From Microcoleus sp. CAWBG506 (GTDB lineage: Bacteria; Cyanobacteriota; Cyanobacteriia; Cyanobacteriales; Microcoleaceae), in the NCBI GenBank assembly GCA_020883125.1, contig JAHREW010000008.1, forward strand, positions 34,794 through 98,793: a stretch of 64,000 nt of DNA, read 5' to 3'. The notes under the pieces were generated by a model. That model worked only from the letters and a program-made list of their open reading frames with translations, was not told where the DNA came from and did not search any database. A program made the position numbers and the translations under genes. Position 1 is the stretch's first letter, and every line of letters begins with the position of its first letter. Positions 54,139 through 63,217 of the stretch are shown piece by piece.

Positions 54139-54762
54139 ATGCAAAAACTACAAGCAAGAGATATCAACCTCCGTTATTTAATCGACAATTTCGGTTTACA
54201 GCGAGTTCGGAATCTAGAATTTTTCCGAGAATGGCAAGAAAACTTGCCCGAAGTAACAGACTCAGAGAAACAATTGCTCGATCGCATCCAAAACATATAC
54301 TACAACCTCGTAGATACCCCGCCTGTATTGGAAAATGCAGTCAAGCTAACAATCATCAGTCCCATTTTGTTTATTGCCGGTCTCTATGAGTCTCCTTTTC
54401 AAGTCAAAGCCGAAAAGTCCATCGCCATTCAAGAAGAAGACGAAGGCAGAATCATCGAAGGCAGAATAGATATCTTAATTATGAAAGCAAACTTGTGGGT
54501 GACAGTAATTGAATCCAAACAACTTGCTTTTTCCACAGACGAAGCACTGGCTCAACTCCTGACATATATGCTGGCAGATCCCAATCGCGAAACTCCTACT
54601 TTTGGTATGATTTCCACAGGTGCTAACTTCAGTTTTGTCAAATTAGTCAGAGGCGAAACTTCGCAATATGCGCGATCGGCTGAATTTGTGATTTCCAATC
54701 CAGGCAATGAATTGTACCGCGTTTTGCAGATTTTAAAACACCTGAGTAAACTTCCAGACTAG
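54139..54762 (+). CDS. HsdR-N-like restriction-endonuclease-fold protein
   Basis: 207 aa. Middle section EGRIDILIMKANLWVTVIES then KQLAF gives the D-x(n)-E-x-K site of type I restriction HsdR N-terminal nucleases, and ALAQLLTYMLADPNRETPTF follows as in that family. No helicase domain, specificity or methylase gene is present, so it is not a functional restriction system. It belongs to a common cyanobacterial orphan family. Confidence 0.78.
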   Translation: MQKLQARDINLRYLIDNFGLQRVRNLEFFREWQENLPEVTDSEKQLLDRIQNIYYNLVDTPPVLENAVKLTIISPILFIAGLYESPFQVKAEKSIAIQEEDEGRIIEGRIDILIMKANLWVTVIESKQLAFSTDEALAQLLTYMLADPNRETPTFGMISTGANFSFVKLVRGETSQYARSAEFVISNPGNELYRVLQILKHLSKLPD

Positions 54763-57988: not shown

Positions 57989-59428
57989 CTAATCTGGATA
58001 AGTCGATCGCTTTTTGATGCTGGTTTTGTTGATTATATATTCTCTGATTACTGGCTCGATCGTAAAGTGCGATCGCCCATTTTGTTTTACTGTTTCAACT
58101 AATGACCGTCGTCCTAAAGATTGCATGACTTTCAAGAGTTCTGGCGGTGATAGTTGCAGGTTTTCTGGTATTTTTGAGATGTCGGCTGGTTCGGGGGTAG
58201 TTGCTAGCCATGCGATAACTTGTTGTTCAGATGCAGATAGGCGATCGCACTTTTGATGCAGCAGAGATTCTAAGTCACCTAAAAATAGGGTATTATAGGA
58301 GAGAAACTCGGAAACGCTGCCGCCGAATAAATCTTGAATCATAGTTGCAACTATATTTAACCATAGGGGATTGCCTCGGTAAAGGTCAATCAGTTGTGAC
58401 CATTTCTCCTCTTCAGCTAATCTTTTTTCTCTGAATATTTCCGCTGCTTCCGCGCCCAAACCGTTGAGTTGCAGCGATTTACAGGGGCGGTTTTCGCCTT
58501 CTAGGGCGGCAATTTCTCTGGGTTTTTCCCAACTGAGGAGAATTAAGCAACTGTTGTGCGATGATTCTGCTAGTTGTTTGAAGAATGTGCCGTAATTTTG
58601 ATAGCCTGGTTGGTAGTGGCCTGCGAGTTGTCCGCTGGTGAAGATGGTTTGGATATCATCGAGGATTAGGAGACAGCGGGATAAACGCAAATGCTCTAGT
58701 AGGGGCAATCCCCCCGTGGTTGCCCTTTCTTCGGCGGAGGGGGCGGGCACGGGGGCACCGCCCCTACAAAGGAATTGAATTAAGTTTGTTTGCAGGGTTT
58801 GCAGGGGTGGTGAATTGCGGAGGCTGCGGTAAATAATATAATCGAATTCGTATTGAATTTGTGGGATTAGTTGGAGAGTTAGGGCGGTTTTGCCAATGCC
58901 GGATAAGCCGTATATGGCGATGAGGCGGGTGCGGTTTTCCAAAATCCACTGTTTGAGGGTGGTGAGTTCGGATGTGCGGTTATAGAATAGGTTGGGTTCT
59001 GGTGCGTCGGATAAGTCTAAATGCAGTTTTGGTTCAGAATTGCTTGTTTTTTCGTTAAATTTATCCTTGTCTTGCGCTTCAGATTGTGAGACTTCTGGAG
59101 AATAAAAAGTATCTGCGGAGATGTTACGAATATGGATGCAGCCATTCCCCACAAGTGAGACATGGGAAACTTGTAAATTTTCCAGTTTAGCTCTAAAATT
59201 GGCTTTGCATATTTGTTCCTCACCTAATGCAACTGATAGAAGTTTCCACAATTTGAAGCCAACTTCTTTAACATATTTTTCTGAACGGTGGTGTTCCTGT
59301 GCAATTTCTTTATATTTTTGATTGTCCCAAGCGCCGCGCAGTATAGCTTTTTGCAGACTATCTAAGTGTTTTCCCGTAGTAGTTAAAGCTAGATTGTCAG
59401 TAAATTTTAAGGCTTCTTCAACGTCCAT
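57989..59428 (-). CDS. vMAP-type HTH / NB-ARC ATPase with in-frame repeat insert
   Basis: 479 aa. An N-terminal vMAP-type HTH domain (EALKFTDNLALTTTGKHLDS, KYKEIAQEHHRSEKYVKEVG) is followed by an NB-ARC STAND ATPase: P-loop AIYGLSGIGKTALTLQ, Walker B CLLILDDIQTIF, LIDLYRGNPLWLNIVA and a winged helix (LSASEQQVIAWLATTPEPAD). No WD40/TPR sensor follows. Residues about 221-243 are encoded by a GTAGGGGC...GCCCCTAC palindromic repeat (58699-58767, 69 bp) inserted in frame within the ATPase. STAND proteins of this layout act as signalling switches, sometimes in defence or death pathways. Confidence 0.87.
   Translation of the reverse strand: MDVEEALKFTDNLALTTTGKHLDSLQKAILRGAWDNQKYKEIAQEHHRSEKYVKEVGFKLWKLLSVALGEEQICKANFRAKLENLQVSHVSLVGNGCIHIRNISADTFYSPEVSQSEAQDKDKFNEKTSNSEPKLHLDLSDAPEPNLFYNRTSELTTLKQWILENRTRLIAIYGLSGIGKTALTLQLIPQIQYEFDYIIYRSLRNSPPLQTLQTNLIQFLCRGGAPVPAPSAEERATTGGLPLLEHLRLSRCLLILDDIQTIFTSGQLAGHYQPGYQNYGTFFKQLAESSHNSCLILLSWEKPREIAALEGENRPCKSLQLNGLGAEAAEIFREKRLAEEEKWSQLIDLYRGNPLWLNIVATMIQDLFGGSVSEFLSYNTLFLGDLESLLHQKCDRLSASEQQVIAWLATTPEPADISKIPENLQLSPPELLKVMQSLGRRSLVETVKQNGRSHFTIEPVIREYIINKTSIKKRSTYPD
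58699..58767. repeat. 69-bp palindromic repeat inside a coding region
   Basis: GTAGGGGCAATCCCCCC at one end and GGGGGCACCGCCCCTAC at the other; the length is a multiple of three, keeping the NB-ARC frame open. Confidence 0.85.
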
Positions 59429-60257: not shown

Positions 60258-60569
60258 CTACCGCTGATACAAAGAACGAGCAAACTCTAATACTTCCTGT
60301 TTAATCGGTTCCGACAAACGATTAATTATCGCATCCAGTCGCTCTGATGTTGACAGCCAGCTTTTAGTATTAGCCTTCCAGACAACAATAAATTGCTCCT
60401 CAGATAGCGCACACAAAGCTAAAGTTTCTCCTTCATCATTAGTAAACTCTACCTCACAGGTATTATCCGGGTAGCACTCCACTATTGCCCCTCTATCTCC
60501 CAATGAGAGATTATTTTCCGGCAAATTTACTAGCAGTTCAATTATGTCAAACAGTTCTGGTTTGTGCAT
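60258..60569 (-). CDS. DUF4926 protein with DUF2281-like tail (module 1)
   Basis: 103 aa from ATG 60569, which overlaps the DUF6883 stop as TGATG with AGGAG just upstream. DUF4926 domain: LFDIIELLVNLPENNLSLGD, RGAIVECYPDNTCEVEFTND, TLALCALSEEQFIVVW. The tail SERLDAIINRLSEPIKQEVL then EFARSL resembles DUF2281, found in small antitoxin-like proteins. The tight coupling to DUF6883 suggests the two products act together. Confidence 0.85.
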   Translation of the reverse strand: MHKPELFDIIELLVNLPENNLSLGDRGAIVECYPDNTCEVEFTNDEGETLALCALSEEQFIVVWKANTKSWLSTSERLDAIINRLSEPIKQEVLEFARSLYQR

Positions 60570-60913
60570 CACCGTCTCCTAACATATAAAGTTGTCAATC
60601 TAGCTCGATCGCTCTCTGGTGCTACTACCCAACCAGTGCGAACAATTTCTCGCTGCCCTTGGACACCAAGAATGTCTATATCTACTCGATAATGTTGACC
60701 GTGTTCGTCAGTCCGGCGTAAAATAGCCTCACAATCTAGTGCTTGCCCCTCTATCTGTTGTAGCAATAACTCATAGTTATCTGTAGTGAAGCCGAGATGA
60801 AGCTGGAACATCAAAGCTTTATCTCTACCTAGCGGGTTATCTGGGCTGAGGGCATACTCAGTTAGCTTTCGTGGATCGATAACGACATTGCTGACAATAT
60901 CTGCCAGTTTCAT
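60569..60913 (-). CDS. DUF6883 protein (module 1)
   Basis: 114 aa, soluble. DUF6883-like pattern: VIDPRKLTEYALSPDNPLGR, KALMFQLHLGFTTDNYELLL, DEHGQHYRVDIDILGVQGQR then EIVRTGW and LTTLYV. The same skeleton (K-T-E-Y, GxxKA, LGF, G-Y-V-D/E, VRTxW) recurs in the gene at 62228. Biochemical role unknown. Its gene starts by ATGA overlap with a small upstream frame and ends by TGATG overlap with DUF4926. Confidence 0.82.
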   Translation of the reverse strand: MKLADIVSNVVIDPRKLTEYALSPDNPLGRDKALMFQLHLGFTTDNYELLLQQIEGQALDCEAILRRTDEHGQHYRVDIDILGVQGQREIVRTGWVVAPESDRARLTTLYVRRR

Positions 60914-61080
60914 TTTGCCTCCCCCGATTCATAAATCCTCAAAAAAGTCCTAGAAAAACCAGCTTCATCAGCAGTTTCAACCAGATTTTTTAGATAATTA
61001 TTTATTTCTTCATCTCCACAGTCAAAACCCTCTCTCTGGAAATTAGGAAAACTTTTTAAAGTACAAAATCTCCATCCCAC
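60910..61080 (-). CDS. Candidate 56-aa small protein overlapping DUF6883
   Basis: From GTG 61080 the frame reads VGWRFCTLKSFPNFQREGFD, CGDEEINNYLKNLVETADEA and GFSRTFLRIYESGEAK, ending in TGA within an ATGA overlap with the DUF6883 gene. Composition is protein-like. FDCGDEEINNYL recalls the N-terminal motif of GNAT-type toxins, but no acetyltransferase core follows, so that may be chance. It also overlaps the end of the preceding membrane-protein gene. Confidence 0.45.
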   Translation of the reverse strand: MGWRFCTLKSFPNFQREGFDCGDEEINNYLKNLVETADEAGFSRTFLRIYESGEAK

Positions 61081-61346
61081 GATTCACTCCTGTCATATTT
61101 ACTTTTAAATTCAGCAACAGTCAATTTCAATTCTTCTGATGCTGGCGACGGATTGTCCCACAAATTTTCTGAGCCGCCCCGATCCCGCTCTGTTTTTTCA
61201 GGTAAAGATTGAGGTTGATAGTTCACAACTAAACCTTCTGGCAATAGGCGGTATTCGCGCTGTAAAATTAGAAAAATCAGCACGAATTGTAATATAATAA
61301 CTATGGTTAACAGCAGAGTTTCCATTTTGAGTGTCAGGAATTCCAT
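61056..61346 (-). CDS. Small single-span membrane protein
   Basis: 96 aa with one N-terminal transmembrane helix (LLLTIVIILQFVLIFLILQR) and a polar cytoplasmic or lumenal tail ending AEFKSKYDRSESWDGDFVL. An ATG seven codons in (61325) is an alternative start. Function unknown. It is upstream of the DUF6883-DUF4926 couple and may be co-transcribed. Confidence 0.6.
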   Translation of the reverse strand: MEFLTLKMETLLLTIVIILQFVLIFLILQREYRLLPEGLVVNYQPQSLPEKTERDRGGSENLWDNPSPASEELKLTVAEFKSKYDRSESWDGDFVL

Positions 61347-61515
61347 CTTTGCGATCGATACTCATATTTCATAATATAGCATAATTCCTCCTGACAAGAT
61401 AGAAATCAAGTCATGCACGAGACGGAAATGCGATCGCCCTTCCTCTCCCAATTTTCTGACAAAGCGCGTGAAGCGCAGCTATCCCGTAGGGAATCGCCCT
61501 TTCAATATAAATCAT

Positions 61516-61785
61516 TCAAGCTAACTCCGACACACTCAGCCGCCCTTCTACGGGTTCATACTCATCCTCTAAAAGCCAATACTGTGCCTCATCATAACTC
61601 TTACTAGAAAACACAACTTTATAACCCTCAGCCGGATCGTAGATCCGACAATTGCCCTCAGCATCACTTAGTAACAAAAGCAGATAAGGCGGTGAAAGAT
61701 TTGGATCGATCCATACTTCTGTAAACTCCCAGTTATTCTTCACTAAATCGGCTTTGAGGCGTAACGTGGTATCGGTTTTCTGCAT
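61516..61785 (-). CDS. Small hypothetical protein downstream of DUF6972
   Basis: 89 aa if started at ATG 61785, overlapping DUF6972 by 53 nt; a GTG at 61743 would give 75 aa beginning (V)KNNWEFTEVWID with an 11-nt overlap and may be the true start. Other parts: PPYLLLLLSDAEGNCRIYDP, FSSKSYDEAQYWLLEDEYEP. Compact, acidic, no known domain. Its coupling to DUF6972 suggests a pair. Confidence 0.6.
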   Translation of the reverse strand: MQKTDTTLRLKADLVKNNWEFTEVWIDPNLSPPYLLLLLSDAEGNCRIYDPAEGYKVVFSSKSYDEAQYWLLEDEYEPVEGRLSVSELA

Positions 61786-62071
61786 CAACTTTTATCTCTC
61801 CGTAATAAAGTAAAAGACGGCTACCGTCCGGGTCAACTCTATAACCAATTGATTCAGCAAAAAACATACCATAACGCTCGTAGCCCCGAATCGTATTTGT
61901 AAATTCTCCCTCTTCTATTATGACTTGAACTACCTGATTCATCGTAGCCTCATGGTTGAAAATATGAGCAGCACGTCCTTTATTCAGCAGTCTTCTCATT
62001 TGTGGCGTGTCTGGCAAGTGTTTAGCAATGTGCCTGCTGTCAAGGGTAATTTGCCGATTAATTCCACTCAT
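61733..62071 (-). CDS. DUF6972 family protein
   Basis: 112 aa from ATG 62071. The characteristic HIFNHEATMNQVVQVIIEEG, IRGYERYGMFFAESIGYRVD and LLYYGEIKVDAENRYHVTP sections match the DUF6972 pattern of cyanobacterial small proteins that often sit at the C-terminus of toxin-like or intein-less modules. Function unknown; partner is probably the overlapping downstream gene. Confidence 0.72.
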   Translation of the reverse strand: MSGINRQITLDSRHIAKHLPDTPQMRRLLNKGRAAHIFNHEATMNQVVQVIIEEGEFTNTIRGYERYGMFFAESIGYRVDPDGSRLLLYYGEIKVDAENRYHVTPQSRFSEE

Positions 62072-62227
62072 CAATTAATTGTTAAGCATACAAGTATGAT
62101 TAAATCACGCGATCGCCCTTTCTCTCCCAACTTTCTGAAAAAGTACGCCCCTGCTTGACCCATCACCTCAAATCTGGTTAGTATAGAAGAAGTAAGACTT
62201 GGAGAGACTTCTTGAAACTGCCAAACT

Positions 62228-62548
62228 ATGAAAGAGCAGTCATTCCTCAGAAAAAAAATTACTGAATATCTGCTCTCACTCACCCATCGCGACGGGAAAA
62301 GCAAAGCAAAATTTTTTTTGCGGTTTGGCTTTTCAGTCGATGATTGGGAAGTCATGGCAACTGCCTTGCTGCGTCATGCCGCTGACCATGAATTAGCTAA
62401 AATTGAAGAATCTCCTTTTGGGACTCGGTACGTTGTTGAAGGAGAAATGCTAGCAGCAGATGGCAGAACACCCTTTGTGCGTTCTGTTTGGTTTATTGAA
62501 ACCGGAGGCGACACTCCCAGGCTAGTAAGTGCCTATCCACCTGATTAA
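62228..62548 (+). CDS. DUF6883 protein (module 2)
   Basis: 106 aa: LRKKITEYLLSLTHRDGKSK, AKFFLRFGFSVDDWEVMATA, GTRYVVEGEMLAADGRTPFV then RSVWFIETG and LVSAYP. It shares the family skeleton with 60569-60913 but is distant, so the two modules are not recent duplicates. It lies 8 nt upstream of a DUF4926 gene, as in module 1, and is divergent from DUF6972. Confidence 0.82.
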   Translation: MKEQSFLRKKITEYLLSLTHRDGKSKAKFFLRFGFSVDDWEVMATALLRHAADHELAKIEESPFGTRYVVEGEMLAADGRTPFVRSVWFIETGGDTPRLVSAYPPD

Positions 62549-62556
62549 AAAAGAAA

Positions 62557-62781
62557 ATGATTGAAGAACTTGACAGCGTTGTTTTAACAACTGATATCCC
62601 CGAAAAAAACCTAAGCCAAGGCGATATTGGCACTGTAGTTTTAGTACATCAAGGTGGCGTAGGATATGAAGTAGAATTTGTTACCTTGACGGGAAAAACA
62701 GTAGCTATTATCTCACTTTTTCGTTCACAAGTCCGACTCATAGGTGACAGAGAAATTGCTCACGCCCGAATGCTAGCTTAA
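62557..62781 (+). CDS. DUF4926 protein (module 2)
   Basis: 74 aa: ELDSVVLTTDIPEKNLSQGD, IGTVVLVHQGGVGYEVEFVT, GKTVAIISLFRSQVRLI. This is a bare DUF4926 domain, SH3-like in pattern, without the DUF2281-like tail of module 1. The 8-nt gap to the DUF6883 gene implies co-translation. Confidence 0.85.
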   Translation: MIEELDSVVLTTDIPEKNLSQGDIGTVVLVHQGGVGYEVEFVTLTGKTVAIISLFRSQVRLIGDREIAHARMLA

Positions 62782-62899: not shown

Positions 62900-63217
62900 C
62901 TATTTTACTGCGACAGCTAATTGCAACCCCAATTCATTTAGTAGAGTTATCAAAGCATAAATTTCTTCACCCCCACTCTCAGACAACATCCGATCTAGTT
63001 TCTCATAAATAAATTTAGCTCCCGGTGATAACTTATTCATCTGTAAATAAGCATCCACCACATCTTTAAGTCCTGCTCGCAGCAATTCAGGTTCGGGGCC
63101 TTCTGACTCCAATTCCAACATGGCCTCGATATAGCCAGCAGCACTTTCGGGGTTTTTTAGAGAAGAAATCAAGTATTCGTGGTAGCTTCTAGTTGTTGGC
63201 ACTTTGAGTTCTTTCAT
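62900..63217 (-). CDS. HTH antitoxin of a RelE/HigB-type module, partner lost
   Basis: 105 aa. TTRSYHEYLISSLKNPESAA and GYIEAMLELESEG are the N-terminal pattern of small antidote proteins; GPEPELLRAGLKDVVDAYLQ then KFIYEKLDRMLSESGGEEIY continues as a helical domain. Its start overlaps a 31-codon stub of a toxin gene (stop 63189-63191). The antitoxin frame is intact, so it may persist as an orphan regulator or as protection against related toxins. Confidence 0.75.
   Translation of the reverse strand: MKELKVPTTRSYHEYLISSLKNPESAAGYIEAMLELESEGPEPELLRAGLKDVVDAYLQMNKLSPGAKFIYEKLDRMLSESGGEEIYALITLLNELGLQLAVAVK

Follow-up and report, generated by a model that had tools for sequence, protein, structure and literature searches.

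In a 64,000-nt stretch of the Microcoleus sp. CAWBG506 genome (contig JAHREW010000008.1, positions 34,794 to 98,793; hereafter the window, in which position 1 is the first letter), a DUF6883 gene (PF21814) is followed by a DUF4926 gene (PF16277) twice within 2.5 kb. We propose, with a probability of roughly 0.84, that both pairs are toxin-antitoxin (toxin-immunity) modules of two genes, in which DUF6883 is a ribonuclease of the BECR (barnase-EndoU-colicin E5/D-RelE) fold, most likely a tRNA-cleaving one (tRNase), and DUF4926 the protein that binds and blocks it. DUF6883 would most likely act as a tRNase of the colicin D / CdiA-CT Kp342 type and so stop translation, while DUF4926, a small SH3-like barrel protein made from the overlapping or abutting gene, would bind and neutralize it. 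Toxicity, RNA (tRNA) cleavage, binding and neutralization are all properties that we infer. The computed support comprises conserved pairing, co-divergence of the partners, predicted folds, a hemagglutinin and a phage minor capsid protein that each end in DUF6883, and the finding that DUF6883 is broken more often than its partner. DUF6883 rather than DUF4926 is taken as the toxin because of its predicted fold, its occurrence in long proteins, and the one-sided decay of the pairs.

Module 1 occupies positions 60258-60913 on the reverse strand and module 2 positions 62228-62781 on the forward strand, with DUF6883 first in both and all four genes above their curated Pfam cut-offs. The predicted toxin of module 1 (60569..60913, -; 114 aa; 128 bits, cut-off 27) is apparently intact, and the A at 60569 is common to its TGA stop and to the ATG of the predicted antitoxin gene (60258..60569, -; 103 aa from that ATG; 82.3 bits, cut-off 29.1), for which a GTG start at 60572 is open too. 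In module 2, an 8-nt gap (62548/62557) separates the DUF6883 open reading frame (ORF; 62228..62548, +; 106 aa; 142.9 bits over profile positions 12-109, cut-off 27) from the predicted antitoxin gene (62557..62781, +; 74 aa; 71.8 bits, cut-off 29.1). The two opposite-strand pairs, the TGATG overlap and the short gap had all been described in an earlier sequence-only reading of this DNA, and each was seen again here. Two small genes on one strand that overlap or nearly do so, in a conserved pairing, have the layout of a type II-like toxin-antitoxin module. The same reading had judged the modules too diverged for a fresh duplication; identity between them is 30% for DUF6883 and 31% for DUF4926, and recent duplication of one into the other is therefore ruled out. 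It had also given module 1 a DUF2281-like tail, which holds in part: the end of the module 1 DUF4926 does match, at 21.1 bits, below the Pfam threshold of 26.5, and DUF2281 is annotated on just 5 of the 82 homologues found. Module 2 lacks this tail. There is a third pair elsewhere in the source genome (6.03 Mb in 81 contigs), on a different contig, and DUF4926 follows DUF6883 in 3/3. By rough arithmetic, about 1 genome in 400 would be expected to have two of three randomly placed modules no more than 2.5 kb apart; the clustering of modules 1 and 2 therefore exceeds chance.

DUF6883-DUF4926 is a widespread family pair. A survey of the phylum (386 genomes, with 14 control genomes) found DUF6883 in 94 and DUF4926 in 99; a tally by eye gave 89 genomes with both families, 5 with DUF6883 alone, 10 with DUF4926 alone and 282 with neither (Fisher p 5e-69). 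Among the controls, DUF6883 occurred in 1/14 and DUF4926 in 2/14. DUF4926 stood right after DUF6883 at 50/50 top matches of the phylum survey and at no fewer than 83 of the 150 DUF6883 matches listed, among which the reversed order did not occur. Complete match lists from 16 genomes placed DUF4926 downstream on the same strand, within 250 nt, for 59 of the 63 DUF6883 matches over the cut-off. A wider genome scan confirmed 115 DUF6883 places, the best 80 of which were taken as a locus set covering cyanobacteria, Chloroflexi, Planctomycetota, Nitrospirae, Gemmatimonadota, Verrucomicrobia, SAR324 and others; the pair had its usual order in 77/80, with a DUF4926-like domain 274 nt away in two loci and on the upstream gene in one. 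The most frequent gene overlap in pairs was 4 nt. Adjacency by chance, named beforehand as the outcome that would refute a toxin-antitoxin or effector-immunity reading, is thus ruled out (59/63; 77/80; Fisher p 5e-69), and the survey of conserved adjacency that had been suggested as a check came out far above chance. The partners also diverge together: distances within DUF6883 and within its partner correlated at r = 0.887 over 110 distinct pairs and at r = 0.920 over the 37 from the phylum survey (0 of 2000 permutations), with the genomes' shared ancestry, which raises the value, left in.

Order is less uniform than pairing. The earlier claim of a conserved order stands for the source genome (3/3) and the 80-locus set (77/80) and fails in a Betaproteobacteria-centered survey of 398 genomes, where DUF6883 is seldom found (13 matches in 7 genomes, 12 of them over the cut-off): DUF6883 came before DUF4926 in 5 of these 12 loci and a DUF4926-like domain came first in 7, several of them weak matches. 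At three loci (L229, L230 and L231) short DUF4926-like ORFs precede DUF6883, and no restriction genes were found among the six neighbors scanned. Of 25 plasmid records with DUF6883, 13 were opened, the unannotated H10 standing outside the analysis; DUF6883 then DUF4926 was seen in five (H1, H3, H11, H18, H25), the opposite order in one (H2), DUF6883 behind a type III restriction gene in two (H8, H9), and DUF6883 inside a longer protein in four (H7, H12, H15, H17). Phages as the main source of the modules can be set aside, given that the module 1 DUF6883 had no match in 50,697 phage records (E up to 0.01) and that viral contigs yielded just three DUF6883 loci, two with the usual pair (L240, L241) and one with a weak DUF4926-like ORF overlapping the DUF6883 ORF (L242). 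Two apparent fusions were likewise discarded. In L174 the end of DUF6883 is, by reading, out of frame, and the locus was not used as a natural DUF6883-DUF4926 fusion; the 726-aa ORF of L232, which finishes in a DUF4926-like stretch, was not counted, being probably a short gene within an overlong frame (the annotated 78-aa gene of L236 matches the final 79 residues at 67%).

The predicted DUF6883 structure has N-terminal helices followed by a four-stranded sheet and superposes on known BECR ribonuclease toxins. Its nearest structure is the contact-dependent growth inhibition (CDI) toxin CdiA-CT of Klebsiella pneumoniae 342 (Kp342; PDB 6CP9), with weaker fold matches to the type II toxins RelE, HigB and BrnT. 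K16, Y20 and T/S108 are conserved across DUF6883; within the ColD / CdiA-CT Kp342-type catalytic set (Lys, Tyr, Thr, His, Arg), the K, R and T of DUF6883 are placed by alignment ends only. The module 1 protein has K16, Y20, K32, R92, R105 and T108, with N where H26 is usual. The structure predicted for DUF4926 is an SH3-like barrel of five strands, to which module 1 adds two C-terminal helices that make up the DUF2281-like tail (predicted local distance difference test score, pLDDT, 92.7). Structural matches of DUF4926 are generic SH3/KOW/Tudor-like barrels, and its role is therefore not readable from the fold alone; CdiI of 6CP9 was not among the fold matches listed, which is uninformative. 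Pfam and family scans of the window-pair proteins found no DNA-binding family, and the DUF4926 prediction consists of the barrel and helical tail only. Some antitoxins lack a DNA-binding domain.

Decay of the pairs falls on one side. Across the 16 genomes, stops lie inside 9/69 DUF6883 matches and inside 0/52 paired over-cutoff DUF4926 matches, and the 80-locus set contains seven loci with a frame-split DUF6883 and none with a frame-split DUF4926. If breaks fell according to length, the probability that all 16 in paired modules hit DUF6883 would be about 0.001, a rough figure that includes assembly errors and leaves out orphans. Orphan DUF4926 genes, with no DUF6883 in front, make up 35/87 in the 16 genomes; stops lie inside 4/35 of them, and a C-terminal remnant of DUF6883 persists before 3/35. 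The genes upstream of orphans vary, six of the ten scanned having a Pfam match (HicB-like, CopG-like below the cut-off, DUF2283, XisI, DUF2442, ParE), and no single alternative partner emerged among these ten. As a separate observation, one open frame (G109:C1:1678501-1678710) joins the first half of DUF4926 to part of DUF6883 behind a ParE-like toxin gene, suggesting recombination of two modules. The three copies in the source genome differ in condition. Module 1 looks whole from its sequence. The module 2 DUF6883 (closest named relative Microcoleus sp. K1-B6, 95% identity) has first residues unlike those of the 12 closest relatives listed, whose common starting stretch sits in another frame here; by reading of the sequence its ORF begins at an internal ATG with the 5' end in a different frame, and intact relatives exist. 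This gene therefore appears to be altered at its 5' end, through mutation or assembly error, and retains the K, Y, H and S/T catalytic-residue candidates. The DUF6883 of the third pair (G000:C21) is interrupted by an internal stop.

Outside the stand-alone pairs, three lineages have a restriction subunit with a DUF4926-like domain at its end, the subunit's gene abutting or overlapping a DUF6883 gene downstream. In one lineage the subunit is a type I HsdR, preceded by an N6 methylase and a specificity subunit (L228; 32.5 bits, over the cut-off); in another it is a type III Res (L182; 37.5 bits, likewise over the cut-off); the third case is a Rhizobiaceae type III Mod-Res system (L234, L235, L111), where the match is weak (9.6 to 10.4 bits with a profile built for this analysis). 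These fusions are the most novel lead of the analysis, one that draws on few loci. They raise the thought that the pairs are guard modules for other defenses, DUF4926 sensing a host or phage component and releasing the DUF6883 nuclease upon defense failure, an idea that also accommodates the NB-ARC/NACHT protein 0.8 kb from module 1. We consider this explanation unlikely for the pairs at hand, which had no adjoining restriction gene among the window ORFs scanned, and thus no PrrC-like linkage. The fusions themselves come from one locus each (L228, L182) or, in the Rhizobiaceae system, from a weak match. A 207-aa ORF 5.5 kb from the pairs (54139-54759, +), a possible restriction-related remnant, matches HSDR_N weakly (20.5 bits, cut-off 25.1). 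A broader scheme, which we offer tentatively and at less than even odds, would make DUF4926 a portable antitoxin domain whose tRNase partner is DUF6883, with three uses: as a stand-alone pair, as payload of a secreted toxin or phage head protein, and as a tripwire in which the antitoxin is fused to the restriction subunit of type I and type III systems and the tRNase would be freed once the restriction enzyme is lost or is inhibited by a phage.

The second of these uses bears on another alternative, in which the pairs would be loose cassettes of toxin and immunity gene from secreted polymorphic toxins (CDI/filamentous hemagglutinin (FHA)-type or phage-head-borne), kept as spare parts or as immunity against neighbors, and not intracellular toxin-antitoxin systems. 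In the relatives L104 and L105, DUF6883 sits at the end of long proteins. A Rhizobium leguminosarum plasmid encodes a hemagglutinin, complete with hemagglutinin repeats, whose final domain is DUF6883; for the next ORF, which is unannotated, DUF4926 is the best Pfam match, at just 14.0 bits. A minor capsid protein of the Phage_Mu_F family, encoded in a phage-like part of an Anoxybacillus plasmid (L105:1915-3351), ends in DUF6883 as well, and the small gene behind it has no DUF4926 match in Pfam. Such placements, a CDI toxin as the nearest structure, and the commonness of lone DUF4926 (35/87), as would be expected of immunity genes, all fit loose cassettes. Against them stand the overlapping two-gene layout, typical of stand-alone modules, and the 150 DUF6883 matches listed from the 386 genomes, among which there was no open frame longer than 288 aa and no secreted carrier; the window pairs, too, stand alone (DUF6883 of 106-114 aa), with no large exported carrier of the CDI or polymorphic-toxin kind. 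We hold this alternative to be improbable. Least probable by far is a non-toxic two-protein unit, such as an RNA-binding regulator linked through simple complex formation: toxicity is indeed something we infer, and SH3/KOW-like barrels, the fold matches of DUF4926, are known in ribosomal and transcription proteins, but the fold agrees with that of a tRNase toxin, the candidate catalytic residues appear to do so too, DUF6883 ends a hemagglutinin and a phage head protein, the distribution is patchy (94/386 genomes) and the decay is one-sided, all of which would be unusual for a regulator.

Between the two pairs lies what is predicted to be a further module, formed by a DUF6972 protein (61733..62074, -; 113 aa; Pfam 164 bits; predicted toxin) and an overlapping gene of no known family (61516..61788, -; up to 90 aa; predicted antidote). 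DUF6972 has 20 matches in 11 of the 16 genomes, with a partner homologue beside it in 19/20 loci (two matches being pieces of one gene). Profile coverage is partial in 9/20 matches (8 genes), and in 7/8 of these the partner aligns along most of its length, as judged by alignment and not by open frame. Ten DUF6972 sequences share invariant His and Lys residues. This pairing and truncation resemble the DUF6883 signature, giving three toxin-antidote-like modules in 2.5 kb; profile comparison lent no support to DUF6972 as a relative of DUF6883 (hhalign probability 0.3%). A similar group occurs in another genus of the family (G129, locus L193), where a module-1-type DUF4926 without DUF6883, a complete module-2 pair and a DUF6972 pair stand together. 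The start of module 1 is overlapped by 4 nt by a remnant of the N-terminal part of a GNAT (Gcn5-related N-acetyltransferase) protein (60910..61080, -; 56 aa; phrog_1758 acetyltransferase, E 2.3e-5, residues 15-48 on profile positions 22-55 of 184). Beside module 2, outside the pair, is a HigA/HI1420-like repressor or antidote gene (62900..63217, -; 105 aa; phrog_4268 transcriptional repressor, E 2.2e-7; TIGR02684 at 13.7 bits, below the cut-off of 53.7); a small gene that looks similar by eye comes after the DUF6883-DUF4926 modules of L174 (4600-4962). The NB-ARC/NACHT protein mentioned above, which also matches ATPase_2 (57989-59428, -; 479 aa), is a possible STAND (signal transduction ATPase with numerous domains) defense NTPase. 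Together with the modules, these genes make up a defense-like island. The six proteins of the three window modules matched no PADLOC model (E up to 1).

A full-text search of open-license PMC papers returned no mention of DUF6883 or DUF6972 and just one paper with a passing mention of DUF4926, in a cyanophage contig; within that search none of the three families had a function in print, though earlier descriptions under other names are possible. Toxin and antidote roles would put names to genes carried by about a quarter of the sampled genomes of the phylum (94/386) and by many other phyla.

Among known systems the closest is CdiA-CT/CdiI of K. pneumoniae 342, likewise a BECR tRNase toxin with an immunity protein; the window DUF6883 proteins differ from it in standing alone instead of ending a secreted CdiA, and no sequence-level match between DUF6883 and CdiA-CT Kp342 was found. 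RelE, HigB and BrnT systems are more distant in toxin fold, and the predicted antidote here is an SH3-like barrel without a recognized DNA-binding domain. The restriction-linked relatives invite comparison with PrrC, an anticodon nuclease that passages of two papers describe as kept silent by the linked type Ic restriction enzyme EcoprrI (PMC3506569; PMC2610378) and that carries, according to a passage of the first, an ABC NTPase domain and a HEPN-type nuclease domain (PMC3506569). Like PrrC/EcoprrI, a few DUF6883 relatives place the predicted tRNase gene directly behind a restriction subunit, where silencing would be an analogy. Unlike PrrC, the nuclease is a separate BECR protein and the antitoxin-like domain ends the restriction subunit, an arrangement absent from the window locus. 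A passage of the 2012 paper remarks that immunity systems seem not to encode typical antitoxins (PMC3506569); in contrast, an antitoxin-like domain is found here on restriction subunits, and the question becomes testable. If the tripwire proposal is true, these loci would represent a new, modular, PrrC-like back-up defense whose immune enzyme has the antitoxin physically built into it.
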